Under the pieces are notes generated by a model. That model did no database searches and was not told the DNA's origin. It saw only the letters and a program-made list of their open reading frames with translations. From assembly GCF_000196895.1 (NCBI RefSeq), contig NC_014299.1:1-64000 (forward strand): a stretch of 64,000 nt of DNA, in the 5' to 3' direction. Position 1 is the first letter of the stretch; each line of letters opens with the position of its first letter. This DNA is from Halalkalicoccus jeotgali B3 (GTDB lineage Archaea; Halobacteriota; Halobacteria; Halobacteriales; Halalkalicoccaceae). Position numbers and translations under genes: made by a program. Below are positions 21,982 through 43,576 of this stretch, piece by piece.

Positions 21982-23415
21982 GTGAGAAATTGGGTTCGGG
22001 TTGCTATTGTCGCCGTTCTCGTCCTTTCGAGTGTTGGGGCTCCAGCACTCGGCCAGCCGATCATCGGCAATGAGACGGATAATAGCACGAGTGAGACGCC
22101 GAATAGTACAGACATTAACGGCTCAGTCGGTAATAGTACCACCGGCAACGGTACGACCGCGAGCGACGGATCCGGTGGCGGCATACTCGGTGGTGGCGGG
22201 CTCATGCCGTCGGTCCCCGGTCCGGGTGATTGGCTTGAGGGGGCAATTGAATGGATTTGGGCGGATATCCAAGATGGCGTCGCGGGCTACGCTGACGAAC
22301 TCAACGCCGCTTTCGTCGGGATCGCGGCGCCTGGAGAACCGACCTCGCCGAGCTCGTGGATCATGCCGACGGGCATGTGGAACGTCCCGGCGGCGTTCTA
22401 CGTAGCCGCCACGTCCATGTCCGCCCCGTTGTGGGCCGCTGGCCTGATCTACATGTTCGACATCAAGAGTCGGCAGAAGCAGCGGGAGATCCTTCGGACG
22501 CTCATTTACTCCGCGTTCGCGACGCTGACCGGGATGGTCCTACTCGGCCTGTACTTCAATGGGATCAACACCATCTCGACGGCGATCGCGCCGGGTGGTA
22601 ACGAGTTCGTCCAGAATGGGAGCGGGATCGTCCAGCTGGGGCTCGGTCACATCGTCGTTCTCGTCCTTATGGCGATCAACGCGGGTGTGGTGATCGTCGG
22701 CGGGCTCATCATGTACGGGATCTACATGCTCCCGCTCGTCTTGTTCGCGTTCTTCCCCTTTATCGTAGCGAGCAAGGCCGTCCCGGTCAAACCCCTGCAG
22801 TCGACGGCGAACCTTGGACTGACAGCGCTGGGTATGCTTCCGCTGCTCAGGATCATTCAGTCGCTTCTCCTGCGGCTCGCGGACATGATGATATGGGACG
22901 CAGTGGGACTTGGCACCCAGATTGCGAGCCTCCTGGGAACGGCGATCATTCTCGCGTTCGCGTTGCTCGGCCTTCCGTGGATCTTTTTTAAAAATATTGA
23001 GACGGCGTCGGGGCTCGCTCTCTCAACGATCACGGTCAAGAAGGCCAACCGTGGGGCGTCGACAGCGAACAATGCGGCCACGTCCGCCGGTTCGCGCGCA
23101 AAGAGTCGCCTCAAGTCGGCCGCTGCTCCCTACGCGACCAAGGCGCGGTCGACGGCGAACCAGACGGCAGCGAACGCGAAGCAACGAGCAGGGAGCCGGA
23201 TGGGCGGGGCAATGCTAACGGCGAAGTTCGGCCGCCCCGGCTCCTCTTGTTCCAAGCGGTCTACGGGCACATCTCCGTCGTCCACATCTCAGGGTTCGGC
23301 GTCGAAGACGACCAATAGTGAGGCGAACTCCTCGAGGACGGCCCGGAATCGAGCGATCAATCGGCAGCGCAGAGATGCGGTCAAACGACGACGCAGATCG
23401 CGGAGTGATGACTAA
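21982..23415 (+). CDS. VirB6/TrbL-like polytopic membrane protein
   Basis: A 477-aa protein from a GTG start. It has a signal peptide (~5-24), a Gly/Ser/Thr/Asn-rich extracellular stretch with many N-x-S/T sites (~25-70), and at least six hydrophobic helices (~135-340), including HIVVLVLMAINAGVVIVGGL and TAIILAFALLGLPWIFF. A basic Ser/Ala/Arg-rich cytoplasmic tail (~350-477) ends it. This matches VirB6/TrbL channel proteins of type IV secretion systems, which form the inner-membrane pore. It sits between the pilin and VirB4-like genes with small gaps. Confidence 0.7.
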   Translation: MRNWVRVAIVAVLVLSSVGAPALGQPIIGNETDNSTSETPNSTDINGSVGNSTTGNGTTASDGSGGGILGGGGLMPSVPGPGDWLEGAIEWIWADIQDGVAGYADELNAAFVGIAAPGEPTSPSSWIMPTGMWNVPAAFYVAATSMSAPLWAAGLIYMFDIKSRQKQREILRTLIYSAFATLTGMVLLGLYFNGINTISTAIAPGGNEFVQNGSGIVQLGLGHIVVLVLMAINAGVVIVGGLIMYGIYMLPLVLFAFFPFIVASKAVPVKPLQSTANLGLTALGMLPLLRIIQSLLLRLADMMIWDAVGLGTQIASLLGTAIILAFALLGLPWIFFKNIETASGLALSTITVKKANRGASTANNAATSAGSRAKSRLKSAAAPYATKARSTANQTAANAKQRAGSRMGGAMLTAKFGRPGSSCSKRSTGTSPSSTSQGSASKTTNSEANSSRTARNRAINRQRRDAVKRRRRSRSDD

Positions 23416-23417
23416 CA

Positions 23418-26400
23418 ATGGCTGACACGAACGACATTCGAGGCGAACAGACTCGAGAGAAAGACCCGACGCAACTGTCCTTGCCGGACATCGACGCGAG
23501 CATCCCGATCGTGAGCCGGTTCACGCTCGACGATATTCTCTTCCTCGCCCCGGCGTTCGGCGTGACCGCCTTCGGTGGCGTTCTCGTCGCGCTCGGCGCA
23601 CCACTAGCGGTCATGATCCCGACGACTATTATTGGCCTCGTTGCTGGGCTCGGCGGGGCTGGCGTGGTCCTGCTCACCCACGAATACACATCGCCATCAG
23701 AGCGCCTCACCGAGTGGCGGCGATACCTCGGTATGCGCCGCCAGATGCCTGTTAGCGACACCGTGGCCGAGCGGTTCGACCACCACGGTGTCCGCCGTAT
23801 CTTCGACGACGGGACCGCTGAAATGGATGATGGGACACTTGTCGGCCTCGTTCGCGTCGACCCGCGGACCACGGCGAACATGACCTACGGCGAGCTCGAT
23901 TCGCTCGTCGCGACCCTCTCGCGGAACATCGACCAGCGGGTCAAAGACTTCGACTTTAGCTACTACTCGACGACGCGAGACCACGATCTGGAGGAGACGA
24001 TCGGCACATACAACGAGCGGGCCTACAGTGGCGTTCTCGACCGGGCGGCGGGCTACATGGGTGAGTTCATGCGCGGAGTTGTCGAGTGGTTCGAGGAGGT
24101 TGATGAGCCGGCAGAGGACCCCCGAGAGATGCATCACTACGTCACGACGTGCGTTGCTCCCGACGACGTTCACGTTCGCGATTCGGACGACGATTCGGGC
24201 TTCCAGCGTCGGAAGGCCCAGCAGCGCGAGATGTACGACCGGCTCGACACGCTCGAATCCAAGATGTTCGCGGGCGTGACAGGCGTCGCGACGGAGTGTG
24301 TGAGCGCCGAAGAACACGCGGAGGTTCTCCTCGCGTACTGGACCGGCGAGCAGCACGAGCCGGATGAACGCCTTGAGCGGAAGTTCAACCGCAGTGAGGA
24401 CGGCCCGAGTGTGTGGCCCGATGCCCGGTTGTTCAAGGCCGGCGACGAGGAGAGTGGGACCGTCGACGACCTCGGAAGCGAGGCGGCCCGTGACCGACTC
24501 CAGACGGGTCTCTCTCAGGATCGCGAGGAGTTCGTCGGATCGGATATGGCACTCGCCGGGTCGCACTTCGACGCGAAGAAAAGCTACGTTGAGGTCGGCG
24601 AGCAGTACGCGGCGACCCTCTGGATCGCGGACTACCCGACGGACATCGAGAGCAACTTTCTGAAGCCGCTGTACGCGATGGACCGCGTCGACGGCGTGGA
24701 TCTCGACATTACGATCGACGCGACAGCAGTCGACAAGAAGCAAGCACAAGAGGAACTCCAGGACGGCGAGGCGAACATCAACGCTAAGTCGGGCGAGCAG
24801 TCCCGGATCGAATCGCGGGGGACCCGAGAAGGTGGGAACGTCTACGAGGATGCCGGAGAGTTGCTTCGCAACACGAACGCACAAGCGTGGGACATCTCGA
24901 TGTACGTCACGGTTCGTGCCGGTCCACGGGCCGCTCTCGGCCTCGCAGAGAGTGAGCATCGAGACTTCGACAGTTGGGACGCAGCGAAGATGGGCGCGCT
25001 CCAAGAGGGGATCGCCGACGTGAAAGAGATCCTCGAATCCTCGCCGGTCGAGGCGACTGTCCTTCGCCCGTCGCGGATGCAACGCGAGTTGTTCGCTTCG
25101 TGCTCGCCGAACAAGGGCAACGTGTTCAACGACGTCCTGAGCGACGATTCGGATCCCGGCATGGTCGAGAGGCGACTCTCGACGCTCCTCGGGGACGCGG
25201 GAACCAGTGGACCGAAGCAAAAGCGCGTTCTCGGTGGGTTCCTCGGTGCGGCGTTCCCGCCGTGTACGGCGACGATCAACGAGGACGGCGGGCTCAACTG
25301 GGGCCGGGACGTTGAGACGGGGCTCCCGTTCCGAACGAATCCGGCGGAGCGTGGCTCCTCGCCGCACATGATCACGCTTGGGATCACCCGGTCGGGCAAA
25401 ACCTACGGTGCAAGCTCGGCAGCGAGCGCGTGGTACGCTGAGAGCGACGACCGGACGCTGATAGTCTGTGATACGCAGGGTGGCTTTACGGGGCTCACAC
25501 AGATGCTCGGCGGCGAGCACATCGTGATTGAGGGCGACAAGACGATCAATCCGCTCGACGTCCAAGCCCCGCCGGAAGGGAATCAAGACATCGACGCCTA
25601 CCGGATGAGTGTCGACCTCGCGACGAACTTCTTTAAGAGTATCCTCGAATCTCAGGGCGTCGACGCCTCGGAGTATCACACGATCATCGAGGACGGCATC
25701 GAGCGGACGTATCGCGACCACGGAATTTCACCGGGCAACGTCGAAAGCGACGAGAATCCAACCGTGAGCGACCTCTTGACGACGTGGGAAGACATGGGGG
25801 AGAACCCCGGTGACTACACTGTTAGTAGTGCGGACTCCGAGAGCGATGTTCGGGAAGACCGTGCGGCGGAACTCCTCGCGAAACTCTCGGGATTTTCCGA
25901 GAACGGAAAGTACCACAACTTGCTTGGCGAGACGTCGCTCGGGTTGATTGATACTGACGTGAGCATGGCCTATCTCGACCTCTCGCAGTTCAATAGCGAC
26001 ACCGACGCCGAGGAGTCGGCAATGATGAGTCTCGCCCAGTCGCAGGTCACGCAAAAGATCCGTCGGACGGAGGGGGAGGTCATGTTCCTCATCGACGAGG
26101 CTCACCAACTCCTCCACAATGACGCTCAGGTGTCATGGCTGCAAAAACAGTTCCGCGAGGTCGCTCGCTACGATGCGATAATGTGGCTGATGAGCCAGCA
26201 CCCGTCGGAGTTCGTCTCGAGCAACTCGTCGGATAGTAACGCCGACAAGAAACAGGCGCTCCTCGATCAGACGAGCTTCAAGCAGATCTACAACATGCCG
26301 ATGTCCACTACGGAGACTGAGGAGGCGATCCGGGAGATGGTCCCGAACGAGGCGATCGTCGATACGATCAAAAACGACCTCACTCCTGCTCGTGCGAACG

Positions 26401-26696
26401 CAGGGTATACGGAGTTCGTCTGTGGGGTCACGGACAACGATATCCCCGGCTGGCACCGGGTCCGTGCCGAGGCGTCGCCGCTTGAGGACTACGTGCTCAA
26501 CTACGACGCCGACGACCACGGCGAGTTCGATCGCTACATGAGCCGGTTCCTCAACGGGAGCGCGCTCGCGCCCGTTGAACAGCAATTCCACGAGGAGGAT
26601 GAACAGTCCGGCGAGCTCGAGGACGAGGACACGGCCGACGCGATCGCCGCTTCGCCCCTCACTGAAATGTACGCGAACGCGGAGGCTGACGACTGA
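23418..26696 (+). CDS. VirB4-like conjugation ATPase with N-terminal PrgI-like membrane segment
   Basis: A 1092-aa protein. Two membrane helices near the N-terminus (~41-59 and ~61-86) resemble a VirB3/PrgI module fused to the ATPase. The VirB4/TraC core follows: Walker A GITRSGKTYG (655-664) and Walker B FLIDEAHQLL (D893, E894), with MWLMSQHPSEF as the sensor segment. VirB4 ATPases are the hallmark motor of type IV secretion, driving pilus assembly and transfer. It starts 2 bp after the VirB6-like stop, so the three genes form one operon. The tail (~1065-1092) is acidic. Confidence 0.88.
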   Translation: MADTNDIRGEQTREKDPTQLSLPDIDASIPIVSRFTLDDILFLAPAFGVTAFGGVLVALGAPLAVMIPTTIIGLVAGLGGAGVVLLTHEYTSPSERLTEWRRYLGMRRQMPVSDTVAERFDHHGVRRIFDDGTAEMDDGTLVGLVRVDPRTTANMTYGELDSLVATLSRNIDQRVKDFDFSYYSTTRDHDLEETIGTYNERAYSGVLDRAAGYMGEFMRGVVEWFEEVDEPAEDPREMHHYVTTCVAPDDVHVRDSDDDSGFQRRKAQQREMYDRLDTLESKMFAGVTGVATECVSAEEHAEVLLAYWTGEQHEPDERLERKFNRSEDGPSVWPDARLFKAGDEESGTVDDLGSEAARDRLQTGLSQDREEFVGSDMALAGSHFDAKKSYVEVGEQYAATLWIADYPTDIESNFLKPLYAMDRVDGVDLDITIDATAVDKKQAQEELQDGEANINAKSGEQSRIESRGTREGGNVYEDAGELLRNTNAQAWDISMYVTVRAGPRAALGLAESEHRDFDSWDAAKMGALQEGIADVKEILESSPVEATVLRPSRMQRELFASCSPNKGNVFNDVLSDDSDPGMVERRLSTLLGDAGTSGPKQKRVLGGFLGAAFPPCTATINEDGGLNWGRDVETGLPFRTNPAERGSSPHMITLGITRSGKTYGASSAASAWYAESDDRTLIVCDTQGGFTGLTQMLGGEHIVIEGDKTINPLDVQAPPEGNQDIDAYRMSVDLATNFFKSILESQGVDASEYHTIIEDGIERTYRDHGISPGNVESDENPTVSDLLTTWEDMGENPGDYTVSSADSESDVREDRAAELLAKLSGFSENGKYHNLLGETSLGLIDTDVSMAYLDLSQFNSDTDAEESAMMSLAQSQVTQKIRRTEGEVMFLIDEAHQLLHNDAQVSWLQKQFREVARYDAIMWLMSQHPSEFVSSNSSDSNADKKQALLDQTSFKQIYNMPMSTTETEEAIREMVPNEAIVDTIKNDLTPARANAGYTEFVCGVTDNDIPGWHRVRAEASPLEDYVLNYDADDHGEFDRYMSRFLNGSALAPVEQQFHEEDEQSGELEDEDTADAIAASPLTEMYANAEADD

Positions 26697-28693: not shown

Positions 28694-28795
28694 GATACGC
28701 GCTGTCTATTCAGCAGACCAGCGAAAACACTATCGATAAATAGCAATATCTCTAGCGGCCAGTTCGCTTCATTCAGATCATTCTCTGACACCTTC

Positions 28796-28843
28796 CCTTG
28801 TGCAACAATCACCTTCGTGAGAAGGAGGATGTGTTACACAAGG
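28796..28843. repeat. CCTTGTGCAACA palindromic element, copy B
   Basis: Arms CCTTGTGCAACA (28796-28807) and TGTTACACAAGG (28832-28843), one mismatch, with a nested hairpin CCTTC / GAAGG in the loop (28812-28825). Copy C has the same nested loop with a T-A pair replacing C-G, suggesting the structure is conserved. Confidence 0.8.
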
Positions 28844-28954
28844 TAAGACGAATCAAAAATATCAGAATCTAAGACACGATTGGTAGGCCCGCGTTCTCAG
28901 ACTGGCCGGGTATACCCACGTTTTTATCGCGCTCAATGGGTAAAATACTAGGAT

Positions 28955-29031
28955 ATTGACCACAGTGCTATTACTGTGTACCACAGTAGACGAAATCGGC
29001 AGATGGCAGCGGTATGTGGGCTTGCCCACAT
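28955..29031. other. Candidate oriT: inverted repeats before the mobilisation genes
   Basis: Two inverted repeats lie 85-155 bp before the MobC-like gene. One is CACAGT (28961-28966) / ACTGTG (28973-28978). The other is ATGTGGGC (29014-29021) / GCCCACAT (29024-29031), perfect over 8 bp with a 2-bp loop. Origins of transfer usually sit next to relaxase genes and hold such repeats. No nick site can be assigned. Confidence 0.4.
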
Positions 29032-29115
29032 CAGGTCTTTAACCTGCCTTTCTCTCAAATTGCCCACCAAACAGCGCAGTTCCGCCCCGCCAGCATACCC
29101 CACGGACGAAAATAC

Positions 29116-29634
29116 ATGACTGGTGATAATGACAGCGGACGGACCAAGCGGGTCACATTCTACGTCTCGGAAAACGAACAAAACGCACTCAAACGAGAAG
29201 CCCAAGAACAGGACAAATCTCTGAGTGCCTACTGCCTCCAGCTCATTCGACGCCAACGCCAACTCGATGCTGAAGAACAACTCGCCGAGGACCTCAACGT
29301 CGAACAACGCCTCGAGGAAATTACCCAGCAAGCCATTGACCGGATCAACGACTCTGTCGGGGACGTCGAAGAAACGGCCGAGGACCTCCGCGATATTCAC
29401 GCCAGATCCGCGAACTACCCCCTCGTGAACTTCCGCCTGCTCATGCGCCAGCACAGCCCTCCCGAAACGTGGATCGACGACCAATTCACATGGTCACGCA
29501 ACCGGCTTCGCGAACCACTCGCCGAACACGACCCCCTCGACGGCCTCATGACTGACGATAGCAGCGACGACAGTAGTGACGAAAGTGAGGACAGAGACGA
29601 TGGTAAAGTGACCGACATTGACGACCTGATCTAA
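29116..29634 (+). CDS. MobC-like RHH mobilisation accessory protein
   Basis: A 172-aa protein. Residues ~8-40 are an RHH-type or MobC-like start (KRVTFYVSENEQNALKREAQ then KSLSAYCLQLIRRQ). A helical section (~45-105) with EEITQQAIDRINDSVGDVEE follows, and the C-terminus (~138-172) is Asp/Ser-rich. Relaxosome accessory proteins (MobC, NikA) have this pattern and bind oriT beside the relaxase. The start at 29116 puts the strand directly at the N-terminus. The next gene, the relaxase candidate, begins 2 bp after its stop. Confidence 0.7.
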   Translation: MTGDNDSGRTKRVTFYVSENEQNALKREAQEQDKSLSAYCLQLIRRQRQLDAEEQLAEDLNVEQRLEEITQQAIDRINDSVGDVEETAEDLRDIHARSANYPLVNFRLLMRQHSPPETWIDDQFTWSRNRLREPLAEHDPLDGLMTDDSSDDSSDESEDRDDGKVTDIDDLI

Positions 29635-29636: not shown

Positions 29637-30161
29637 ATGCACGGAGACGATCGGGACACGATCTACAAGACGAATTATAGGGACGATGAAGGCACTGAGA
29701 AGCTCACGAACTACCTCCAGCATGACAATCAGAAGGTCCGCGACCGGACGGGACGAGCCATGTCCGATCGCGAGATCGAACAGTTCAACGACAAGGCTGC
29801 CGGCCGGCGAAACCGACACATCATCATTTCACCCCGAGATCACGAGGACCTCTCAGATCGCGAATTAGATCGGGCGACTCGCGAGTACATGAGCGAGATG
29901 ATCGAGGACCGCCCAACCGCGGACTACGCCTACGCCGTCCACGACGACAAAGAGCACGGCAAGGACGTTCATATCGCCATGACAGCAGGCGACAAGCAGG
30001 ACTTAGAGATGTACCCAGACGACATCCGACGCGAGCGAAAGCAAGCGCACGAGGCGTATCTCGAGTACGGACGCGACCGAACTCAGGAGCAAGAACAAGA
30101 GCAGGAACAGGAACAACAGAACGACCGTGGGCGCGATCTCGGAGGCGGGAGGGGCCGATAA
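29637..30161 (+). CDS. Candidate MOB-type relaxase (short)
   Basis: A 174-aa protein. The signature is at residues 102-113: H102, D104, H107 and H112 in HDDKEHGKDVHI. This is the three-histidine metal-binding motif (HxDxxHxHxH-like) that relaxases use to position the nick site. RHIIISPRDHEDLSDRELDR (60-79) fits the preceding strand-helix. Tyr10, Tyr14 and Tyr26 are candidates for the nucleophile. The C-terminus is Glu/Gln-rich. It is much shorter than typical relaxases because only the catalytic domain is present. MobC-like and VirD4-like genes flank it without gaps, which strongly supports a mobilisation role. Archaeal relaxases are rarely reported. Confidence 0.7.
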   Translation: MHGDDRDTIYKTNYRDDEGTEKLTNYLQHDNQKVRDRTGRAMSDREIEQFNDKAAGRRNRHIIISPRDHEDLSDRELDRATREYMSEMIEDRPTADYAYAVHDDKEHGKDVHIAMTAGDKQDLEMYPDDIRRERKQAHEAYLEYGRDRTQEQEQEQEQEQQNDRGRDLGGGRGR

Positions 30162-31483
30162 TGGTGGTCGAGACCCTTCTTCCGGTGGCCGCTGTTGGTA
30201 GCACGGCTGGGCTCGCATACGCCGCAAAGCGGAAAGTGTACCCGGCCATGCCGACGCCCGATGAAGACACATTCGTCCTCCCGATCAAGGTCACATCTGC
30301 CGACGCCGAGGATATCAACAGCTGGTTTGTCAGAGGCATGCGGATCCCCAGGCGGTCACTCCTCACACTCGGTGCCAGTGGGGCAGGGAAGAGCGAGACG
30401 CTGAAACACTTCGTCGATCAGCTCCAGAACGAGCCAAACGAGCCCGTCGTCGTCTACGATCACAAAACGGACTATCAGGAGTTCCTTGAGGAGCGAGGGG
30501 TGGACATGATCCGACTCTCATCCGGGGGTTCGACCGGGGGAGATGGGTCCGAAATCGCGTGGAATATCTTTGAGGAAATCGAGCACGAGGAGGATGCCGA
30601 TGAACTCGCGCGAGCACTGTTCCCCGAGCAGAACGGGGACTTCTGGAATGCCGCTGGTCGGCAACTGTTCGCGGCGACTCTCAAGTACATCCGCCGGGAG
30701 GTGGTGGGTCCGGATAACGCCGACCTCGTTCGCTACTGGGAACGCACGGTCCCCGAGAAAATGCACGAGAAGCTGACGAGAGACGGCCACGAGGACCTCG
30801 CGGCTGCCGCAAGCGCGATTAACCCCGAGACGGAACGCCAGGCCGGCTCCGTGTTCGCGACCGCCCAGCAGCAGGTCACGGACCTCTTCGTCGGTGACTT
30901 CGCCAAGAGCGGCGAGTTCTCGATCCGCGAGTACATGCAGAACCCGGACGGCCGGGTCTTAGTACTCGACTACCCGACACGACAGTCCGGCACGATCGCG
31001 CCCGTGTTCCGCTACCTGATTGACCAGGCCATCATGCACGGGATGGACGATCCTGGTCGATCGGCGTACTACCTACTCGACGAGATCGAACACCTGGACG
31101 CGACGATCAAGCGCCTCGGTGAGCTGATCAACGTCGGTCGAGGCGTCAACTGCCAAGCGATCCTCTCGCTCCAGTCGATCGCCCAGCTCGAGGACACCTA
31201 CGGAAAGGAACGAGCGCATGCGCTGCTGTCGGGCATGGTCACGGTAATTGGTCTTCGGACGGCCGACGAGGAAAGCGTGGACTTTCTCCGCGAGACAATT
31301 GGGACGTCCTTTGAGCAGTATACTCGCAACGCGGGGAGTGATCGGACGCCACGCGAAAACGAGGAGAAAGAAGAGTATCAGTTCGCGAAGGGCGACCTCC
31401 GGAACTTCGACCCTGGTGAAGCGGTGATCTGCCGGCAGGGTAGTGGATGGGTTCACGGCCAGATCCAGTTGCTCGAGGAGTGA
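30161..31483 (+). CDS. VirD4/TraD-like coupling ATPase
   Basis: A 440-aa protein. A short hydrophobic N-terminus (~4-21) may anchor it to the membrane. Walker A is GASGAGKSE (71-79), an EIAWNIFEEIE segment follows, and Walker B is YYLLDEIEHL (D307, E308). The motif AILSLQSIAQLEDTYGKE (~331-348) is typical of TraD/VirD4 proteins. Coupling proteins take the relaxase-bound DNA to the VirB4/VirB6 channel. The ATG overlaps the relaxase stop by 1 bp, so the two are translationally coupled. It lacks the large all-alpha domain of some homologues. Confidence 0.85.
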   Translation: MVVETLLPVAAVGSTAGLAYAAKRKVYPAMPTPDEDTFVLPIKVTSADAEDINSWFVRGMRIPRRSLLTLGASGAGKSETLKHFVDQLQNEPNEPVVVYDHKTDYQEFLEERGVDMIRLSSGGSTGGDGSEIAWNIFEEIEHEEDADELARALFPEQNGDFWNAAGRQLFAATLKYIRREVVGPDNADLVRYWERTVPEKMHEKLTRDGHEDLAAAASAINPETERQAGSVFATAQQQVTDLFVGDFAKSGEFSIREYMQNPDGRVLVLDYPTRQSGTIAPVFRYLIDQAIMHGMDDPGRSAYYLLDEIEHLDATIKRLGELINVGRGVNCQAILSLQSIAQLEDTYGKERAHALLSGMVTVIGLRTADEESVDFLRETIGTSFEQYTRNAGSDRTPRENEEKEEYQFAKGDLRNFDPGEAVICRQGSGWVHGQIQLLEE

Positions 31484-32246: not shown

Positions 32247-32264
32247 CTTCGGCTTCTTTTCTTG

Positions 32265-32311
32265 CCTTGTGCAACACTCGCCTTTGTGAGAAAGGATGAT
32301 GTTGCACAAGG
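32265..32311. repeat. CCTTGTGCAACA palindromic element, copy C
   Basis: Arms CCTTGTGCAACA (32265-32276) and TGTTGCACAAGG (32300-32311), perfect. The loop holds CCTTT / AAAGG around GTGAG. It lies 18 bp after a gene end. Confidence 0.85.
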
Positions 32312-33008: not shown

Positions 33009-33329
33009 TACCACCGTAGTCAGACCGTAGTCGCTTAGTAACTAGTCAGCCACGCGTCTGACAATTGAGGGTCTATTGTCACTGGGCGTGCTCACGTGGG
33101 GGAAGTGGTGGCTTGTAGAGATGGCCAACGACACATTCTTCGCGTCCTTTTAAGGCTACAAATGAGACTGGAAATACTGGGAGCTGGTGAGTCCACAATC
33201 GGCGCGAACACAGAACAGGATCGACTTAGCGAGTGACTATCACTTGAACTACTGACAGATACCGTGAAAATGAGCGGAAATGGACAGAGCAGCCGCTATC
33301 GAATCGGAGAACCCGGAGTGAGAAAAGTG

Positions 33330-35063
33330 TTACCCGAACTCCCGGAGAAAGTCGCCTAACGCCCGCACGAACGTCTTCGCCGTAATCACTGGCGGCGACC
33401 GAATCGGCTTATCGAGCGCGACCTTGATCAGATAGTCTGTGAGCCGCCACAGGTTATAGATCAGCGTCGACAGCGCGAAGTTACACAACCGAAGCCGGTA
33501 GTCCGTCGACGACGTCTTCGGCAGAAAGTCCTTGATTGACTTGTACTGGTTTTCGATGTCCCACCGCCGACTGTAGCCGTTCACCACGCTCGCAATCTCC
33601 TCCGGCTCAACGTGGTCCTGGTTCGTCACGAACACCGCATACTTCCCGTCAGCATCATCGCTCGTACTCGGCGTGTAGAGGAACTCCGCCTTGTGATGGA
33701 CGTCGCCATCAATTCCGAACGGGACGTCGTGCTTGACAGCTGCGTCCGCCGTCGGATGCTTCTGAATGTCCTGAATTGCTGCCAAGTCATCCTCGTACGT
33801 CGGTACTGGAGAGAGATACGTGAGCCCACGCTCGTCGACATCTGCGTACACGCGATTGGCGTAGAACCCACGGTCGAACATCACCATGTCCAGGTCGACG
33901 AACTGCTCCGCTCGGTCGAGCAATCGACTCACCAGGTCAGCTTTCGAGTACGACGGCGAACAGTCGCGCTCCCACGTAGAGTCTTCTTTGACCGGTTCAA
34001 TACCGAGGACGATTGGTGCGTGATCCCCCACTAGCGTGATCGTCGCGTACTTGTAGCCGCGTTCGTACTCGCCGTCCTTTTTGTAGCCACTCACCATCTT
34101 CGGGTAGTCCGGCTTCGCAACTCCCGCTTCTTTGTCTTCCCACGGCCAGACGTGGAACTGCTCGTGGGTGATGTCGATGGCTGCAACGGTCTCCCGTGAG
34201 TCGAAGGGATCGTCGCCACGAATTGAGTTGATGATGTTCTCCGTGGCGGCGTTGAATGCCGTCATAACCGCGTCTCGAATCTGGTCGATCTCGGGCATCG
34301 AATCATCATCCTCGAAATCCTCGAACGTGAGCTGGTCGTCCGAGTCTTCGGGTGTCGCGATTTTCTTGATTGCCCGCAGGAACGTTGAGTCGTCGCAGGT
34401 GAGGTCGTCGTCAGTGAGCCAGCCGTACTCGGCTTCCGAATGAGCACTCCCGTTGTTCGCACAAATACTCGCGAACATATCCAGCATTACCTCGTCGGAG
34501 TACGTCTTGTGGGCTGCTCGGTGCGTGTCGAATTCGGGGATAACGTGTTTGCGAGCGAGCGTCAGCGTCTTCTGGGCTTTCTCCTTCTTGTACTCGCTCG
34601 TGCTCTGTGACACCTCTTCCTCGGTTTCAGTTGGGACGGACGGCACAAGAGCTTCTGTGACGACATCATTGTCGAGCGCAACTTGCCGGACGCCAGCTAC
34701 AGTCCGGTTGAGGACTTCTTGGGTGTCCTCGCTGAATTGTGCGTGCGTGTACGAGAGTTGCTGTTGGGTCGGCGTCTTCTTGAGGTCAGTAATATCGAAG
34801 TGGAAGCTCTTGACGAGGGTTGGCTTCCGACCGAGCTGTTGCGCTAATTCATTCTGTGAAATCCCGCGAATTCCTTTGAACAGGAGCGTGCGAAACATTT
34901 CGTCGGTCTCGAAGTCGACGCGGTTCTGGTCGCGGGCATCCTCGAGATCGTCAACTGGGATCGAAAGCTGGCAAATGACATCCCAGAGGTGGTCTTCACG
35001 CTCACAGAGCGTCTCCGCGTGAACGACGATTGACTGGGCGACCGCCGACGGGTCACTCGTCAT
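33330..35063 (-). mobile_element. DDE-type transposase gene (IS4-like superfamily)
   Basis: A 577-aa transposase gene. Residues ~60-85 contain an HTH-like lead (RGISQNELAQQLGRKP). The DDE catalytic fold is spread over AIDITHEQFHVW (~297-308), MVMFDRGFYANRVYA (~395-409) and WDIENQYKSIKDFLP (~520-534), the last resembling the Y-(2)-R-(3)-E-(6)-K signature of IS4-type enzymes. The length suggests a haloarchaea-specific group, which I cannot name with certainty. Terminal inverted repeats could not be identified in 33015-33329 or 35064-35360. The gene is intact and may be active. Confidence 0.8.
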
Positions 35064-36002: not shown

Positions 36003-37559
36003 TCACCGGTACAGATTGAGTCGCTGGAAAATCGAGCCAAGCAGTACCGCAACTGGAATGATTTCGAGCCGCCCGACCCACATGTTGATTATCAACATCG
36101 CCTTGGCAGTGTCGGGCATTGTCGGGCCTGTAATCCCGGAGTCTAGACCGACGTTACTCTGTGCACTCATCACGTCGAAGATAACGTACTCCAGCGGATG
36201 ACCCGGTGACAGCACGCGCAAGAGCACGGCAACACCGATTATGAGGAACAAGATCCAGAGGATGAACACGACCGTCGCTTCGGTGTACTCGCGCTGAGCC
36301 TGCTCTTCGCTGAGCCGTCGGTCACCGATCTTGAGATACCGGATTGCGCTCGACGGTTCGAAGACATCTCGTATCTGCCAGGCCGTCCCCTTGAACAGCG
36401 TAACCATCCGGATGATTTTGAGCCCACTGGTCGTCGATCCAGCCGCTCCACCGGTGAGCATTCCGAGACACATGAAGAGTGTTGCACCAGTATCCCATAC
36501 TCGATCGGTCCCACCGCCGATCGTCTCGGTACCGAACCCGGTATTCGAGACCGCCGAAACGAACTGGAAGACGCTCGCTCGGAACGTATGTTCGAGCGTG
36601 TCGTACTGGCCGTTCGCATACAGGATCGCCGCCAGCGCGAGTGAGCCGGCCGTGAACCAGATGAACACCCATCGTGTTTGCAGGTCAGCGTAGAAGTTCC
36701 GCAATTCACCCTTGAAGATCAGGTAGTGGATCGGGAATGCGATACTACCAGCAAACATGACGGGCACAACAGCGTACTCGATCAGCGGGCTGTCGTAGTG
36801 CCCGATTGAAGCACCGTGGACAGAGAATCCCCCGGTCGCAATCCCCGTCATGCCGTGGTTAATCGCGTCCCACAACGGCATTCCGACCAGCAAAAACAGG
36901 ATGATCGACCCGATCGTGAGTCCGACGAAGATTTTCCAGATTTCCTGGACCGTCGTCACGATACTTGGGTGGATCTTCTCCGAGCGGGCTTCACTTTCGT
37001 AGAGTGTGTACGAGCCACTGCTTCCGCCACCGCGGTGGAGAATCGCTACGGTGAGAACGATCACGCCGACGCCGCCGACCCATTCGATGAACGACCGCCA
37101 CCAGTGGATCGACCGCGGCAGCTTGTCTTCGACAGCGGCCATCGTCAGTCCGGTCCCGGTGAATCCACTCATACTTTCGAAGACCGCGTCCAGCGGATTG
37201 AGGAAGATGACCGTCGTGTCGTCCATCGGCGGCGTGTTCATCCAGACGGGAAACGGGTCGATCTGGATCGTCCAGGCGACGAGTAAGAACGGTAGTCCAC
37301 CGAGAAAACCGATCACAGCCCATGCAGTGGCCGCGGTAACCATCGCGTCGCGTTTCTCCGGCGGGTCAGCATCCCGGTACCACCGGACGAGTCCAGTTCC
37401 GAATCCGCCCAAGGTGACCGCAGTGACAGCAAACGCAGGCGTCGCGTAGAACTCACCATTAACGACTGCCACGATGATCGAAACCGCCGACATCAGGGCA
37501 ACGGCCTGTACAATGCGACCGGTGTCGTGTCCGACAGCCCTCGTATTTACGTTCAGCAT
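36003..37559 (-). CDS. trkH: TrkH-type potassium transporter, membrane subunit
   Basis: A 518-aa polytopic protein with about ten hydrophobic helices. Selectivity-filter-type loops are visible as ESMSGFTGTGLTM (~130-142), NHGMTGIATGGFSVH, VSNTGFGTE and AQSNVGLDSGITG. These four P-loops are the hallmark of Trk/Ktr channels that take up K+ in exchange for membrane potential, central to salt-in osmoadaptation. The TrkA (RCK) partners are in the same cluster. It is the last gene of a minus-strand run starting near 42716. Confidence 0.93.
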   Translation of the reverse strand: MLNVNTRAVGHDTGRIVQAVALMSAVSIIVAVVNGEFYATPAFAVTAVTLGGFGTGLVRWYRDADPPEKRDAMVTAATAWAVIGFLGGLPFLLVAWTIQIDPFPVWMNTPPMDDTTVIFLNPLDAVFESMSGFTGTGLTMAAVEDKLPRSIHWWRSFIEWVGGVGVIVLTVAILHRGGGSSGSYTLYESEARSEKIHPSIVTTVQEIWKIFVGLTIGSIILFLLVGMPLWDAINHGMTGIATGGFSVHGASIGHYDSPLIEYAVVPVMFAGSIAFPIHYLIFKGELRNFYADLQTRWVFIWFTAGSLALAAILYANGQYDTLEHTFRASVFQFVSAVSNTGFGTETIGGGTDRVWDTGATLFMCLGMLTGGAAGSTTSGLKIIRMVTLFKGTAWQIRDVFEPSSAIRYLKIGDRRLSEEQAQREYTEATVVFILWILFLIIGVAVLLRVLSPGHPLEYVIFDVMSAQSNVGLDSGITGPTMPDTAKAMLIINMWVGRLEIIPVAVLLGSIFQRLNLYR

Positions 37560-37590
37560 GAAAGTCGTTTAGTTAATCAAATACCCGCTC

Positions 37591-38733
37591 TCAGTTTTTA
37601 TCGTTATCATCATCCTCTATAGCTTCGATGCCTCGTTTCCAACGGTAGTACAGCGAACGCGCAGTTCGGTCACTGTCACGTGACATAAGAACGGTCGCCT
37701 CATTAAGCTCTGAAACGGTTTCTTGTACCGATTCATAGACGATCTTCTTCAACCGAGATTTCTGTTCCGGAGCCCCGATCGATACAAAATCGTGGTCCTT
37801 CGCTTGCTGCACGATAACATCGGCTGTATCAGAAGCTGTTTTCAGTTCCGTTTCGGTCGTCACATCGGAACCGAGGACGTAGTCGGCGAACTTCAGCAGG
37901 TCTTCACCTTCACCTGTCGCTTCTGCAGATGCATCAGGTGAGATAACGTGAAGAACGGTAACTGATGCATTAGCATGGCGTGCTACTGCGCGCGCTGCTT
38001 CTGCAGCAAGAGCAGCGTGTGGTCCTGCCCCAACAGGTAACAGTATTGAATCTATTGTCTCTGCCTCAGATTCGGCGAGAGAGGCGACAGTGTGTCCTTC
38101 GATATCCGGAACGTATAGCGTATTCTCTCCACTTTTAACGCCCATGTTTTCGACGAACACGTCACACTCGGCCTCAGCCAAGATCGTATCGACCGTGCTC
38201 CGATTGAGTAACCAGCCCTCGTCAAGTCCGGTCCCACGTAGCAACAAGACAGCCGTCTCGTTCCCGCCGTTGACGACGCTGAGGATTCCGCTCGTGATGT
38301 CCGATACAGCACGAACGCTTGCAGTAACCGAAACGCCCGGATCAAGTTCTTGCGCCACGTCGGCCATCTCAGCTAACTGTGTTTGCCGGTCCTCGATGGC
38401 CTCAACCACCTTCGGTTTATCAGATGCCGCCGGGTCTTCTGATTGAACGTACTCTCGAACGGGTTCGAGTGCAGACTCGTCCTGAACAGCCTCCATCCCG
38501 ACCAAGAGTACCCGGCCGTCGTTGTCCGCCGCGAGCGCAACCGCTGTTCGGAGAAACCGCCGGACGTTGATCCCCGTGTACGTATCGAGCAGCGTCCCGG
38601 TGACTGGAACAACGACGAGATAATCGGGTGTCTGAATCCGCGGGCCACTGCGGAGATACGAGTTATCATCCGAGTCGGACGTGTCGCGTGGAACGGTGAT
38701 TCGAACGTCTGGAGGCTCAGAGTCGTCTGACAT
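37591..38733 (-). CDS. Universal stress protein with two UspA-like parts
   Basis: A 380-aa protein. The C-terminal half (~215-360) is a UspA domain: IDSILLPVGAGPHAALAAEA and VTVLHVISPDA; the loop FVSIGAPEQKSRLKKIVYES has the shape of the nucleotide-binding end (G-2x-G-9x-G-S/T) in altered form. The N-terminal half (~35-190) also begins like UspA (YLVVVPVTGTLLDTYTGINV), so it is probably a tandem. It starts 2 bp after the TrkA stop. Tandem Usp proteins with K+ transporters are usual in haloarchaea and may gate transport by nucleotide. Confidence 0.85.
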   Translation of the reverse strand: MSDDSEPPDVRITVPRDTSDSDDNSYLRSGPRIQTPDYLVVVPVTGTLLDTYTGINVRRFLRTAVALAADNDGRVLLVGMEAVQDESALEPVREYVQSEDPAASDKPKVVEAIEDRQTQLAEMADVAQELDPGVSVTASVRAVSDITSGILSVVNGGNETAVLLLRGTGLDEGWLLNRSTVDTILAEAECDVFVENMGVKSGENTLYVPDIEGHTVASLAESEAETIDSILLPVGAGPHAALAAEAARAVARHANASVTVLHVISPDASAEATGEGEDLLKFADYVLGSDVTTETELKTASDTADVIVQQAKDHDFVSIGAPEQKSRLKKIVYESVQETVSELNEATVLMSRDSDRTARSLYYRWKRGIEAIEDDDNDKN

Positions 38734-38735
38734 GG

Positions 38736-39401
38736 CTAGGTCCTCGTGAAGATGTCTGTTATCTGTCTGTCTGCACCGTTCCCGGCGAAAATCGTCACGA
38801 CATCGCCCGGCTCGATCTCAGTCTCGCCCTTTGGGATGTGTAGTTCATCGTCTCGAACGATAGCGACGATAATCGTCTCCTCTGGCAACAGATCTTCCCT
38901 GTCAGCGTCGATCAGGCTGAGACCCGCGATCGGAGCGCCATCTTCGACCGTGGCCTCGAAGATTTCGGCTTCACCGGCGATCGGCATGAAGTCCTGAATC
39001 GCAGGGTGTTGGACGGCCCGATAGAGGTACTGACCGTTGAGTTGGTGCGGGCTTTCGACGATGTTCACACCGAGGTCCTCGAATAATTCCATGTGGGCAG
39101 GGTCGTTGATCGAACTCACGAGCGTCTCGACCTCGTACTGCTTCCCGAACATGGTAACCATGAGGTTCACCGAATCGCTCTCCGTCGTCGAGATGAGCGC
39201 ATCCGCTTCCTCGACACCGGCTTCGAGCATGATGTCTTTCGACGCTGCATCCGCATTGATGACCATACAGTCGTAGGTTGCACTCACCTCCTCTGCGATC
39301 TCCGTGTCGCGTTCGATGACGACCACCTCGTGGTCGTCTTGGGTTGCGAGGTCGATGACTGTGCGTCCGGTACGGCCTGCGCCGATGATGATTACGTACA
39401 T
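38736..39401 (-). CDS. trkA: TrkA-type RCK regulatory subunit
   Basis: A 221-aa protein. The N-terminal Rossmann fold starts MYVIIIGAGRTGRTVIDLAT with GxGxxG and an acidic residue ending the second strand (VVVIERD), so it should bind NAD(H) or ATP. Residues ~140-221 are the TrkA_C/RCK_C domain (EAEIFEATVEDGAPIAGLSL, then KGETEIEPGDVVTIFAG). It forms a gating ring under TrkH. It is co-transcribed with the Usp gene and probably serves the adjacent TrkH. Confidence 0.92.
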   Translation of the reverse strand: MYVIIIGAGRTGRTVIDLATQDDHEVVVIERDTEIAEEVSATYDCMVINADAASKDIMLEAGVEEADALISTTESDSVNLMVTMFGKQYEVETLVSSINDPAHMELFEDLGVNIVESPHQLNGQYLYRAVQHPAIQDFMPIAGEAEIFEATVEDGAPIAGLSLIDADREDLLPEETIIVAIVRDDELHIPKGETEIEPGDVVTIFAGNGADRQITDIFTRT

Positions 39402-39523
39402 TGGTGGGTGGATCGGGACGGTGGTAGTCGGTTAGCGATGCAATCGAATGGGAACGACGCGGGATGGTGGGCCGGGGACGTCGAGTATGGGATTCGTGGA
39501 TTTCGTCTGGTGAATCATACTGG

Positions 39524-41149
39524 TCACCTCCTGAAGAGACTAGTAATCAGGACGAGTACGGGGATTATTTCGAGCCGTCCCATCCACATCTGGATGATGA
39601 ACAGTATCTCCGCGATGACCGGCATACCTGGACCGGTAATCCCTGACGACAGTCCGACAGTCCCCTGTGCGGTCGCTACCTCGAAGATCGCGTCCGCGAG
39701 CGTGAACTCCGATGGGAGGACAGCCAACAGCACGAACAGTGACAGTGCCAGCACGATGAGGTAGGCAGCCGCCATCGTCCCCGCGGCGCGAATTTCGTCG
39801 TTGGCCTCATCGGCCTTGAATATCCGCTGTCCGATCCGCAGGTCGTCGATGGCATGGTCGGGGAGAAACACCCGTGAGACCTCCCAACTGATCCCGCGAG
39901 CGACGATGTAGCCACGCAGGATCTTGATCCCCCCGACCGTCGCTCCTGCAGACCCGCCGAGCAACATCGCCCCAAAGACGATGAACATGACCGCGCCGTT
40001 GTTCCAGTCGCCGATCGCAGACGTCTGCCAGCCGGTGGTTGTCTGCGCACTGATGAACTGGAAGAGCCCCTCGCGGAACGCCTGACTGGTCGCCACCCTG
40101 CCGACGTACCCAAGCGGGTCGCCGTTGTACGGGACGCCGACCCACCGTGCGAGAAACGCCGTCAGACCGACCACACCGACGATGAACAGGCCGAACAGCG
40201 CTCTGACCTGCGGATCACGCGTGAACTCCCGGATGTCACGCTCGGAGGCCGCAGCGTAGTATACCGGGATCGAGATCGCTCCGGTGATCATCGCGGGGAT
40301 ATGGACGATATCCATCGCATAGGAGTTGTAGCCCGCGATGGAGTTGTCGAGCGTGCTGAACCCGCCGGTGGACTGGCCGGTCATCGCGTGGTTGAGCGCG
40401 TCGAAGATCGTCTGTTCGATACCGTAGCCGGGAAGGACAATGAACGTCGCTACAGCGAGGTAGACGGCCACCAATGCGGTGATACCGACGTATATCTTCC
40501 AGATCGCACGCGCAGTGCCCGCGATACTCGGTCGTAGCTTCTCGCTCCGCCCTTCCGACTGGTAAAGCGAGATGCCTGCGATCCCGTGTGGTTGTCGAAG
40601 AATCGCAAGCGAGAGTACGATCATCCCCGCGCCACCGACCCACTGCATCTGTGAGCGATACCAGAGGAATCCGTGGCCTACTGACGGTTCGTGGACGCTC
40701 ATCGTCAGGCCCGTGGTCGTGTACCCGCTCATACTCTCGAAGAACGCATGGAGTGGGTTCTGGAAGTTGAGAAGGCTCGATTGATAGCTCGCCCCCGCCG
40801 GCACGAAGGATTCGAGCACGGCCGATGGTGTGATGTACGCCGCGATGACAAACGGGATGGCACCGAACGCAGCCGTAGCGAGCCACCCGAGTGCCGCGAC
40901 GATCATCGCGTGGTGGCGTTGCGGCTCGGGGGCGTCTTCACAGAGCTTGTACATGGCCCCACCAGCGATCGCAGTGACTCCTGCAGCAATCAGGAAAGCT
41001 AACGCACTGTACCACTCCTGGTACAGCAGCGAGACAATTAGCGGGACTAGCATCAATCCACCGATGAGGACTTGCAGGGCACCGATGTCTCTGATCACGG
41101 TCTTCGAAGCAGTCACGAAACCAGGGCGGCCTACAGGTGAGTTAGACAT
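39524..41149 (-). CDS. trkH: TrkH-type potassium transporter, second copy
   Basis: A 541-aa homologue of the protein at 36003-37559, with about ten hydrophobic helices and the same four P-loop signatures: ESMSGYTTTGLTM, NHAMTGQSTGGFST, AQTTTGWQT and AQGTVGLSSGITGPGMP. The second and third differ from the first TrkH, so the pair may have different ion affinity. It lies between two trkA genes. Duplication within a cluster is common in haloarchaea. Confidence 0.92.
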   Translation of the reverse strand: MSNSPVGRPGFVTASKTVIRDIGALQVLIGGLMLVPLIVSLLYQEWYSALAFLIAAGVTAIAGGAMYKLCEDAPEPQRHHAMIVAALGWLATAAFGAIPFVIAAYITPSAVLESFVPAGASYQSSLLNFQNPLHAFFESMSGYTTTGLTMSVHEPSVGHGFLWYRSQMQWVGGAGMIVLSLAILRQPHGIAGISLYQSEGRSEKLRPSIAGTARAIWKIYVGITALVAVYLAVATFIVLPGYGIEQTIFDALNHAMTGQSTGGFSTLDNSIAGYNSYAMDIVHIPAMITGAISIPVYYAAASERDIREFTRDPQVRALFGLFIVGVVGLTAFLARWVGVPYNGDPLGYVGRVATSQAFREGLFQFISAQTTTGWQTSAIGDWNNGAVMFIVFGAMLLGGSAGATVGGIKILRGYIVARGISWEVSRVFLPDHAIDDLRIGQRIFKADEANDEIRAAGTMAAAYLIVLALSLFVLLAVLPSEFTLADAIFEVATAQGTVGLSSGITGPGMPVIAEILFIIQMWMGRLEIIPVLVLITSLFRR

Positions 41150-41176
41150 GTTTGTGAATCCTCCTTTGAAAACCGA

Positions 41177-41863
41177 TCAGATCGTTCGATCTTCGTAATG
41201 GCCGAAGATGTCCGTGATCTCTGGATCTGCTCCAGAACCAGAATAGACCGTCAATAGATCGTTCGCCTTGATTCGGGTATTCCCTCGTGGAGTCAGTGGC
41301 TTTTCTTCGCTCTCACGTCCGACAGCCACGATCAAGATATCGTCCGAAAGCAGACCCTCTTCACCTGCTTCGGTGAGTGTCTTTCCAGCGATCGGTGCGT
41401 CCTCTGTGACCGTTATTTCGAAGACTTCAGCCTCCTCGCCGATACGCATGTAATCGACGATAGCTGGCCTGGCAACTGCCCGGTAGAGGTGCCCGGCGAT
41501 GAGCTGTTGCGGATTTTCGATCGTGTTGACCCCAATCTGCCGAAACAGGTTCATATGCTCGGGGTTGTGGACGACTGAAACGATGGCGGGAATTTCGAGT
41601 TCCTGTGCGAGCAACGCGACCATCACGTTCGTCGCGTCCTGGTCGGTCGTCGAAATGATGCCGTCTGCCCGTTCAGCCCCGGCATCGTTGAGCGTATCTT
41701 TCAGGGTTGCATCCGCATTGAGTACTAAACAGTCGTACTCGCTGGCGACCGCGTCAGCTCTTTGTTTGTCTCTCTCGATGACCACGACTTCGTTTCCGGA
41801 CCGAGTTGCGATGTCGATCAGTGGCGTTCCGATGTCGCCTGCTCCAACGATGATGATGTACAT
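41177..41863 (-). CDS. trkA: TrkA-type RCK regulatory subunit, second copy
   Basis: A 228-aa protein: MYIIIVGAGDIGTPLIDIAT with GxGxxG, VVVIERDKQRADAVASEYDC after the second strand, and an RCK_C domain (~140-225, EAEVFEITVTEDAPIAGKTL). Same plan as 38736-39401. It lies 27 bp upstream of trkH and is likely its gate. Confidence 0.92.
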   Translation of the reverse strand: MYIIIVGAGDIGTPLIDIATRSGNEVVVIERDKQRADAVASEYDCLVLNADATLKDTLNDAGAERADGIISTTDQDATNVMVALLAQELEIPAIVSVVHNPEHMNLFRQIGVNTIENPQQLIAGHLYRAVARPAIVDYMRIGEEAEVFEITVTEDAPIAGKTLTEAGEEGLLSDDILIVAVGRESEEKPLTPRGNTRIKANDLLTVYSGSGADPEITDIFGHYEDRTI

Positions 41864-41919
41864 AGGTAGCGTATTCTATTCGCTTGTTGTCTGTGCGTAC
41901 GATCGATATCCGGTCACAC

Positions 41920-42363
41920 TCATTGTTCGTTCACCTCACCGTCGCTGAGAACCAGAATCGGCACGTCGGTCTTGTTGACGAGATTGTGGGTCACGTCACC
42001 AGTCAACAATTTCCGCCAGCGACTCCCGCCACGGGGAGTGAACGCGATGGCACTTGCATCAAGCTCGTGAGCCGCATCGATGACCGTTGAGGCGATATCA
42101 GTTCCGTAGAGGATCTTTGTTTCGAGGGCAATCCCGGTATCGGAGAGGCCATCGGAAATAGCGGCGAACATGTCCTGCGCCCACTGTTCACGCTGCTCCA
42201 CAGAGGCTTTATCAGGCGCTCCACCCGCTTTCTCGATGACGTGGACCGCAATCACTGTGGAGTCCGTCCCCTCGACGTACGGGACGAGCGTGGCAGCTGT
42301 CGCTTCGGCGTCATCGGGGTTTGCGACGGGAACGACCACTTGTCTGAAGAATGACTCCGTCAT
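41920..42363 (-). CDS. UspA-family universal stress protein
   Basis: A 147-aa single UspA domain: QVVVPVANPDDAEATAATLV, VIAVHVIEKAGGAP, and a C-terminal AIAFTPRGGSRWRKLLTGDV that carries the nucleotide-binding G-2x-G-9x-G pattern in altered form. The start overlaps the preceding gene by 4 bp. It probably senses energy or salt state with the Trk system. Confidence 0.88.
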   Translation of the reverse strand: MTESFFRQVVVPVANPDDAEATAATLVPYVEGTDSTVIAVHVIEKAGGAPDKASVEQREQWAQDMFAAISDGLSDTGIALETKILYGTDIASTVIDAAHELDASAIAFTPRGGSRWRKLLTGDVTHNLVNKTDVPILVLSDGEVNEQ

Positions 42364-42716
42364 CTCAGTCGCCCCCCGGTGTCACCGTGGACCTTTCCGA
42401 GGTAATGCCATTTGTACTGACCGTCCCCGTCATCGATATCGGGTTCCCATTTGACCCTGTAGGCGAATGGCCCGCGTGCCTCGCCTGTTTCATCCGGGCG
42501 CTCTACGATGACGACCGTGTATGCGCCGTGGTCTTCCATGCGAACGAGTTCTTCCCCCTCTCGTGCTTCGATCGCATCGGTGAGTGGCGGATGGTCCCGA
42601 AGGAGTTGCTGCGCGTAATGGATGATCTCCCTGAGTTGACTGTCACTGCTGCCTTCGAGTGCAGTCGTAACTTCCTCGGAGACATCTTCGGGAGAGTCGA
42701 TTTTGGATGGAGTCAT
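42360..42716 (-). CDS. Small acidic protein heading the Trk operon
   Basis: A 118-aa acidic protein, not assigned to a family. Its N-terminal half is helical (SQLREIIHYAQQLLRDHP) and the C-terminal half strand-rich, with GAYTVVIVERPDE, FAYRVKWEPDIDDG and YKWHYLGKV, often seen as a conserved haloarchaeal protein. It is the first gene of the minus-strand potassium run and is coupled to uspA by ATGA. Confidence 0.65.
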   Translation of the reverse strand: MTPSKIDSPEDVSEEVTTALEGSSDSQLREIIHYAQQLLRDHPPLTDAIEAREGEELVRMEDHGAYTVVIVERPDETGEARGPFAYRVKWEPDIDDGDGQYKWHYLGKVHGDTGGRLR

Positions 42717-42942
42717 GAGTTGTAATTGCTCACTGCCGTTTCCAGTCTGACTACACGGACCAGGAGGCCCGGCGAGCCAACGTTTCGAACGGCGTGATTG
42801 CTGTCACGGAATCTCTCTACCCACCCTAGAATTTCCGGGTAGCAATAAATCTTAGCCTTTGATTTTTGATAGAGAGAATATATGGCGATCAAATTTTCCG
42901 GACCGAAAATCCATCAACCTGGCGTACAGAAGTAAGTGTTAA

Positions 42943-43368
42943 ATGGGTGGATCGACCGAACCCGACGAGTTCGATGGACCTACTCAAACACTACGCGGGC
43001 GAGCCGCAGAAACCATCGAACGGGTCTGTGTAATTACTGCTCGATGGTCACTACCGCTGATTCTGCCCGTTGGCTGTTTGTTCTGCGTGTACCTGATCGG
43101 AGGATACGTAGCCGTCTCCTTCGGTCTGTGGTCACCATCGTATGCCTTCCTGTCGCTGTCAGAAGACGTGTACTTTGCGTGGCTTGGGTTTCTCTCGGGA
43201 ACCGTTATCTGCCTTGGAACAGGCTCCTTGATTGGGCTCGCATTCCTGACGGAAGGGGACAGTCGGATTCACAACGAGCTCTCGATTCTATTTTCTTTCA
43301 TCGGGTTCGGATTTGGTGCAGGACTGCTTCGGATGACCTATCCGACCGTTCTTTCATCGTTACTCTGA
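42943..43368 (+). CDS. Membrane protein of unknown function
   Basis: A 141-aa protein with three predicted membrane helices (~35-58, ~78-102, ~110-133). Examples are LPLILPVGCLFCVYLIGGYV and AWLGFLSGTVICLGTGSLIG. It diverges from the Trk operon, and 42717-42942 carries A/T-rich promoter sequence and an inverted repeat CTACCC / GGGTAG near 42816-42840. A relation to K+ transport is only positional. Confidence 0.65.
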   Translation: MGGSTEPDEFDGPTQTLRGRAAETIERVCVITARWSLPLILPVGCLFCVYLIGGYVAVSFGLWSPSYAFLSLSEDVYFAWLGFLSGTVICLGTGSLIGLAFLTEGDSRIHNELSILFSFIGFGFGAGLLRMTYPTVLSSLL

Positions 43369-43576
43369 GCGTTGTGTGAGACGTTGTCATGATGGGTTTG
43401 TGTGATTCTGCCGAGGGCGTTGAGCAGAGAAGGACCCATTGCAAAATGCCGTACTACGTCAGTTAAACGAATCTGAATACATAGCACAGATCACGTACAG
43501 ATTCAGGAACTGGCATCGGTGGGGCACTGCTGGACGACAGGGAAGACCCTTTATCGGCCCTGATCGTAGTTTCTGT

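Follow-up and report, generated by a model that had tools for sequence, protein, structure and literature searches.

A probable stand-alone MOBP-like HUH relaxase and a candidate origin of transfer on a 44.5-kb element of Halalkalicoccus jeotgali

Results

The window, i. e. the whole stretch of 64,000 nucleotides analysed here, contains a gene for a minimal relaxase of 174 aa (29637..30161, + strand), recognised by its match to Pfam PF03432, by a structure model with its PDB matches, and by conservation. This protein is very probably a stand-alone, MOBP-like HUH relaxase that is nearest to MobP1 and initiates conjugative transfer of its own 44.5-kb element. What the data show is the family to which the protein belongs, its predicted fold and its conservation, the order of the neighbouring genes, purifying selection on the relaxase, and a cis element that recurs across the family; nicking and transfer are what we infer.

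The protein and its predicted fold

The 174-aa protein matched PF03432 (Relaxase, the MobA/VirD2-like nuclease domain) with 37.6 bits and an E-value of 3.2e-9 over residues 22-139 and thus exceeds the curated gathering cut-off of 24.6 bits. Compared with four relatives of its clade (76-85% identical, dS unsaturated), dN/dS was 0.07-0.15. Together with the PF03432 score above the cut-off this marks a real, selected gene. The ORF is intact at 29637-30161 and carries H102, D104, H107 and H112, as had been read in the first-pass annotation; from about residue 145 on, the C-terminal tail is acidic and Gln-rich.

Among 25 relatives included in a profile search, 23 matched PF03432 and 16 matched MobP1, the named NCBIfam family that matched most of them; a Rep family was matched by one. 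The window protein itself reached 27.7 bits with MobP1 (E 1.6e-6), where the curated cut-off is 200 bits. Because it stays below this score and also lacks a complete three-histidine site (see below), we do not file it strictly under MOBP/MobP1; judged by its sequence it is a relative, not a strict member, of this family.

A structure model was built from the window protein and 12 homologues. Its mean pLDDT was moderate (68.8), with block means of 70-91 across residues 21-120. The best PDB match in Foldseek was 2NS6, the minimal relaxase domain of MobA from R1162, with a weak E-value of 0.048. VIA-align likewise put this structure first (Z 8.2 over 134 aligned residues); a geminivirus HUH Rep (7kik) came second, and F TraI, NES, TrwC, pCU1 TraI and MobM came next. 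All of the top 14 were HUH proteins (Z 6.3-8.2), and all but one HUH Rep were relaxases. As the typical VIA-align background is Z 7-8, the top value lies only slightly above it and was judged together with this consistent set; in such a model-based comparison, a list of relaxases plus one Rep is not a chance outcome, though the Z values are middling. When PDB chains were searched by sequence, the only relaxase was 9qq7, a weak match (E 0.53); all others were at chance level. According to the relaxase-led structure ranking the predicted fold is HUH, and with the Pfam score this bears out the relaxase identity proposed from the sequence in the first place.

Active site

The pattern HxDxxHxxxxH had been proposed as the catalytic motif. 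This did not hold in an alignment of 39 distinct relatives: H107 is a histidine in only 13/39 and varies between H, S, N and D even within the window clade, hence the pattern is not the catalytic motif. Y26, P66, R82, Y99 and H102 are invariant. Y26 (39/39), in an N-terminal NYLQHD-type motif, provides the N-terminal tyrosine expected of an HUH relaxase and presumably acts as the nucleophile. The common motif III of the relatives reads HRDTEHPHAH and that of the window clade HDDKEHGKDVH, with the second metal histidine of the relatives aligned to D110. Position 110 is His in 33/39 and Asp in 6/39, the latter all from the window clade; position 112 is His in 35/39 and Gln in 4/39. Most relatives thus have the canonical three-histidine metal site, whereas the window protein has H102 and H112 with D110 as the putative middle ligand. 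From the alignment, its metal triad is probably H102/D110/H112, with Y26 as the nucleophile. Given the dN/dS of 0.07-0.15, the Asp110 variant is under purifying selection.

It is conceivable that this substitution (H110D) has weakened catalysis in the window clade, so that its relaxase would be mainly an oriT-binding repressor or would depend on a paralogue. D110 stands where 33/39 relatives have histidine, and two 40% identical paralogues are encoded in the same genome (C3:169626, C3:188393). Yet Y26, H102 and H112 are intact, the clade comparison gave the low dN/dS quoted above, and the window has its own conserved nic-like site. Aspartate is able to bind Mg or Mn, and another natural variant, Gln at position 112, persists in the family too. 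We therefore regard a weakened relaxase as very unlikely and retain the view of an active one.

Gene order

The relaxase is the middle gene of a three-gene cassette that encodes a NikA-like ribbon-helix-helix (RHH) protein, the relaxase and a TrwB/TraD-like coupling protein, 2.9 kb downstream of the gene for a VirB4 ATPase. The first gene (29116..29634, +) encodes a NikA/MobC-like relaxosome accessory protein of 172 aa (Pfam NikA-like, E 1.4e-5, just under the cut-off). Its start is placed at 29116 and not at 29014, where the ORF finder had set it, because 29014-29115 is non-coding DNA conserved in the relatives. The tight spacing noted in the first-pass annotation was confirmed: the relaxase gene starts 2 bp past the RHH gene, and its stop overlaps by one base the start of the gene for a type IV coupling protein (T4CP) of 440 aa (30161..31483, +; PF10412, E 1.8e-36; TraD_Ftype, E 3.6e-26). 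The VirB4-like conjugation ATPase (1092 aa; 23418..26696, +) matched two NCBIfam VirB4-like models with 4.4e-28 and 4.6e-24, below their curated cut-offs. Directly upstream lies the gene for a putative mating-channel protein (21982..23415, +), which has no Pfam match and has homologues near VirB4 in the loci L125 and L099. Relaxase, T4CP and VirB4 are all present on contig C5, which thus has the gene set of a conjugative element.

Across the relaxase clusters the order RHH, relaxase, T4CP is maintained, and the coupling protein adjoins the relaxase in nearly all of them. VirB4 is found near the cassette in the window, in pNG500-type plasmids and in others. In the pNG500-type plasmids of Haloarcula the cassette directly follows the VirB4 gene, with a pilin-like gene upstream in pNG500 itself; small plasmids (16-21 kb) carry the cassette without VirB4. 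In one relative (L076:1474-3414 / L117, G097:C33) a single 647-aa protein joins a relaxase domain (25.2 bits) through a hydrophobic linker to a coupling-protein ATPase (7.2e-38), each domain above its cut-off; in its relaxase part the third metal histidine is replaced by glutamine. Such a fusion argues strongly that relaxase and coupling protein work together.

The gene order also bears on the question whether the protein could be an HUH endonuclease for rolling-circle plasmid replication instead of transfer. HUH Reps share the fold, 7kik being second in the structure ranking, and some family members reside on the small plasmids of 16-21 kb. However, the families matched are Relaxase and MobP1, with Rep in 1/25 members, and the gene forms an operon-like run with those for the RHH and coupling proteins, the latter being fused to the relaxase in one relative. 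Moreover, the cassette follows VirB4 in pNG500-type plasmids. A replication function is thus highly improbable, and a transfer relaxase remains the preferred reading.

Candidate origin of transfer

A conserved non-coding block upstream of the RHH gene (28945..29062, +) was recognised as a candidate oriT when the upstream regions in the window clade were aligned, and with a leave-one-out matrix. On the same strand it contains a block of high information content, AAATCGGCAGATGGCAGCGGTAT (28992..29017), which may be a binding site of the relaxase or the RHH protein; a hairpin ATGTGGG-CTTG-CCCACAT (29014..29031), which precedes the predicted nic; and the nic core CAGGTCTTTAACCTG/CC (29032..29048; the slash marks the nick). 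The predicted nick falls between 29046 and 29047 in the context CTTTAACCTG/CC. In the alignment, TTTAACCTGCC is invariant in the upstream regions of the window clade. The conserved block includes the oriT proposed before (28955-29031); nic, however, is predicted 15 bp past the end of that stretch.

In more distant relatives the motif TTTANCYTGYC is shared, but its place differs: cassette-type loci have it 5' of the RHH gene, and pNG500-type loci 3' of the T4CP gene. The family consensus, TTTANCYTG/YC, resembles the bacterial MOBP nick sequence. With one locus per 70%-identity cluster and two regions searched, it was present on the cassette strand in 14/20 relaxase clusters, where 0.06 were expected from first-order Markov sequences, and on the opposite strand in none; two of the 20 clusters (L099, L110) have no site. 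The bacterial nick consensus taken as (C/T)ANCCTG(C/T) had matched the window clade only, and the relaxed form, which came from aligning a second clade, fitted family-wide. Since the form of the motif was chosen post hoc, it was checked against Markov sequences and the opposite strand, with leave-one-out matrices, and on plasmids that the matrix did not include. A second block, about AAAnCGC..GACGGCAGCCGGAT, lies 30-55 bases upstream of the motif at fixed spacing (16 aligned sites). It played no part in site selection and reached 9.5 bits in the interval -50..-30, as against a random mean of 2.75 and a maximum of 5.1 in 2000 trials.

With a weight matrix made without the window, 29046/29047 ranked first in the 64 kb (13.1 bits; next, 3.1). 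As 1/60 random sequences of 16 kb scored as high as 23.5 bits with the matrix, the 13.1 bits are convincing only in combination with position and rank. The best match in the own locus was the site in 14/16 clusters that have one (exceptions L050 and L106). Of the plasmids not used for the matrix, four whose relaxases share 73-97% identity with the training ones scored 37-53 bits at the expected position, and L139 (99% identical) scored 14.1 bits at the usual position of its clade. A Halorussus plasmid (79% identical) had no such score at the expected position, and the best match in the held-out plasmid L140 was 5.9 kb away. This plasmid test is only partly independent, as most of the relaxases are at least 90% identical to a training one. 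In the whole genome there are nine exact motif matches, and four of them are found on the same strand as the genome's four relaxase genes, 550-600 bp ahead of these; the four cassettes are two pairs of mutual copies. A lone motif on the small contig C7 was also considered as an oriT and was dropped, having no score with the full matrix.

The nic core of the window, AACCTG, is one base from the MOBP core ATCCTG, with the hairpin 5' of it. The corresponding hairpin in L124/L126, ATGTGGC-CTTG-GCCACAT, shows a compensatory change relative to the window. Stems near the site were longer than in shuffled sequences (mean 2.6 vs 1.3). We do not claim a family-wide hairpin, however, because more than half of the clusters lack a perfect stem of at least 5.

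Could the upstream motif, instead of being an oriT, serve the mob operon as promoter or operator? In the window clade the motif precedes the RHH gene by 70 bp, its TTTAA is TATA-like, and autoregulation is frequent among RHH proteins, all of which would fit. In pNG500-type loci, however, the motif follows the coupling-protein gene, 3.2-3.9 kb beyond the start of the relaxase gene, and no annotated gene start follows closely on the motif strand. In addition, the motif closely resembles the MOBP nick sequence, and hairpins lie 5' of it in several clusters. A purely regulatory role is thus unlikely, and a candidate oriT is the interpretation kept here.

Carrier element

Contig C5 (44,459 bp) is a circular permutation of window positions 17-44475. 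On contig C3 the 44.5-kb copy of the element is bounded by a 213-bp direct repeat (window 17-229 and 44476-44688); this copy is either a cointegrate or an assembly duplicate. The view that the window copy was integrated by way of 213-bp att repeats is unproven and was given up, since both ends of C3 read like a cloning-vector polylinker: TACCCGGGGATCC and GGATCCTCTAGAGTCGACCT, at window 1-16 and in the last bases of the contig (end of L054). Because of these sequences at both ends, contamination of the public record of C3 is possible, and the replicon may not really be closed. At its right end (L054 19726-19977), C3 repeats with 99.6% identity 253 bp from beside the transposase gene of the window (33132-33384).

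Palindromic, related repeats of about 48 bp (CCTTGTGCAAC...GTTGCACAAGG) flank the mob cassette at 28792-28835 and 32261-32311; there is another copy near C3:156.4 kb, and more of them occur upstream of relatives. The same element encodes an Eco57I/MmeI-type methylase and an SNF2-like helicase (6196-13291), likely a restriction or DISARM-like defence module. Translations from 36003-44320 include a Trk-type K+ transporter-like membrane protein, TrkA-like NAD-binding proteins and UspA-like proteins, and the cluster ends in an HTH/TrkA_C protein.

Relatives in other genomes and plasmids

A first scan of genome contigs with the window protein alone as the query gave no match. In the protein search, relatives were found in 32/391 genomes of the class, belonging to 12/86 genera. 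Scans of phages and viral contigs gave no relative. PLSDB contains 20 matching plasmids, all of them haloarchaeal and 20/20 typed as non-mobilizable; some of their copies are annotated as relaxase, many as hypothetical protein. In a sample of 393 genomes of the phylum, two genomes had a Relaxase match outside the order that holds the other matches, one of them above the family cut-off. These PF03432 matches (L146, G657:C129:4179-4421; L147, G408:C35:2387-2632) lie in open frames of 533 and 319 aa and could be other archaeal relaxases or contamination. In the genome of the window itself, a 15.6-kb direct duplication (99.97% identical) in G000:C3 carries both copies of the second relaxase cassette (169626, 188393). 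The Halomarina sp. BND7 plasmid L052 (16.7 kb) combines the relaxase cassette with terminase and phage minor head genes; it is possibly a phage-plasmid or a satellite that uses conjugation genes.

Discussion

A possible sequence of events at the cassette is as follows. The RHH protein and the relaxase would bind the hairpin and the conserved block (28992-29031). Y26 would then attack the phosphate between G29046 and C29047, presumably on the + strand and with the polarity given here, while H102, D110 and H112, the putative triad, would hold the metal during cleavage. The relaxase would remain covalently attached to the 5' end, and the adjacent coupling protein would hand the complex of relaxase and ssDNA to the VirB4-powered channel.

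In a wider sense, it seems likely that haloarchaea own a widespread, self-contained relaxosome made of minimal HUH relaxases (with HDH and HHQ variants of the metal site and a T4CP fusion), a NikA-like RHH protein and a shared MOBP-type oriT, by which plasmids typed as non-mobilizable undergo bacterial-style conjugation of ssDNA. If this is true, plasmid mobility typing would change, as 20/20 matching PLSDB plasmids carry the label non-mobilizable. With a relaxase family in haloarchaea and a nick predicted to the base, archaeal conjugation becomes directly testable by cleavage and mating assays. A catalytic core of 145 residues that works at high salt could, moreover, serve as a small HUH tag.

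The best fold match, MobA of R1162 (PDB 2NS6; Z 8.2, 134 residues aligned to a target of 183), is likewise a catalytic domain of stand-alone size. The minimal relaxase domain of R1162 is a truncated part of a larger protein, whereas the window protein, 12% identical to it, is complete at 174 aa and adjoins its own T4CP.

In the MOBP relaxases RP4 TraI, VirD2 and VirD2 of Helicobacter Tfs4, a nick core with a 5' inverted repeat resembles the haloarchaeal site. The MOBP nick consensus is (C/T)ATCCTG(C/T) with an inverted repeat 5' of the nick sequence (PMC3772185), and other nick sites end in CTTG/C (PMC7755788). By sequence comparison, the haloarchaeal CTTTAnCYTG/YC is intermediate between the two. 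Differences from the MOBP relaxases are the haloarchaeal core TTTANCYTG/YC, the Asp in place of the second metal His in the window clade, and the MobP1 score of 27.7 as against 200.

That haloarchaea have relaxases has already been touched by automatic annotation and by three surveys. In the survey of Guglielmini et al. (2011, PMC3158045), pNG500 was listed among the conjugative plasmids, and otherwise very few relaxases turned up in archaea; a relaxase with TraD was noted in Haloarcula in 2019 (PMC6333295); and a plasmidome study of 2021 reported 18 MOBP1 profile hits in a halophile lake (PMC8563766). An analysis of the haloarchaeal relaxase family or of a haloarchaeal oriT was not found in the open-access literature searched. 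The scarcity of descriptions of archaeal relaxases, remarked on in the first-pass annotation, is in line with Beltran et al. (2023, PMC9905601) and with a review of 2025 (PMC12857230), according to which archaeal conjugative plasmids have no recognisable relaxase and may use a mechanism different from that of bacteria. The conjugative plasmids of Sulfolobales and Thermococcus (pNOB8, pT33-3) are archaeal too and encode homologues of VirB4 and VirD4 (PMC12857230). However, no relaxase has been recognised in them (PMC9905601, PMC12857230), in contrast to the window.

The relaxase of Haloarcula pNG500 (NC_006393), annotated as hypothetical, belongs to the same family (35% identity) and has the same nic-like motif and the order RHH, relaxase, T4CP beside VirB4 and a pilin. 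It differs from the window protein in its length of 251 aa and its canonical PHAH triad, and its locus has two RHH genes, with the motif lying 3' of the T4CP gene and not 5' of the RHH gene as in the window.
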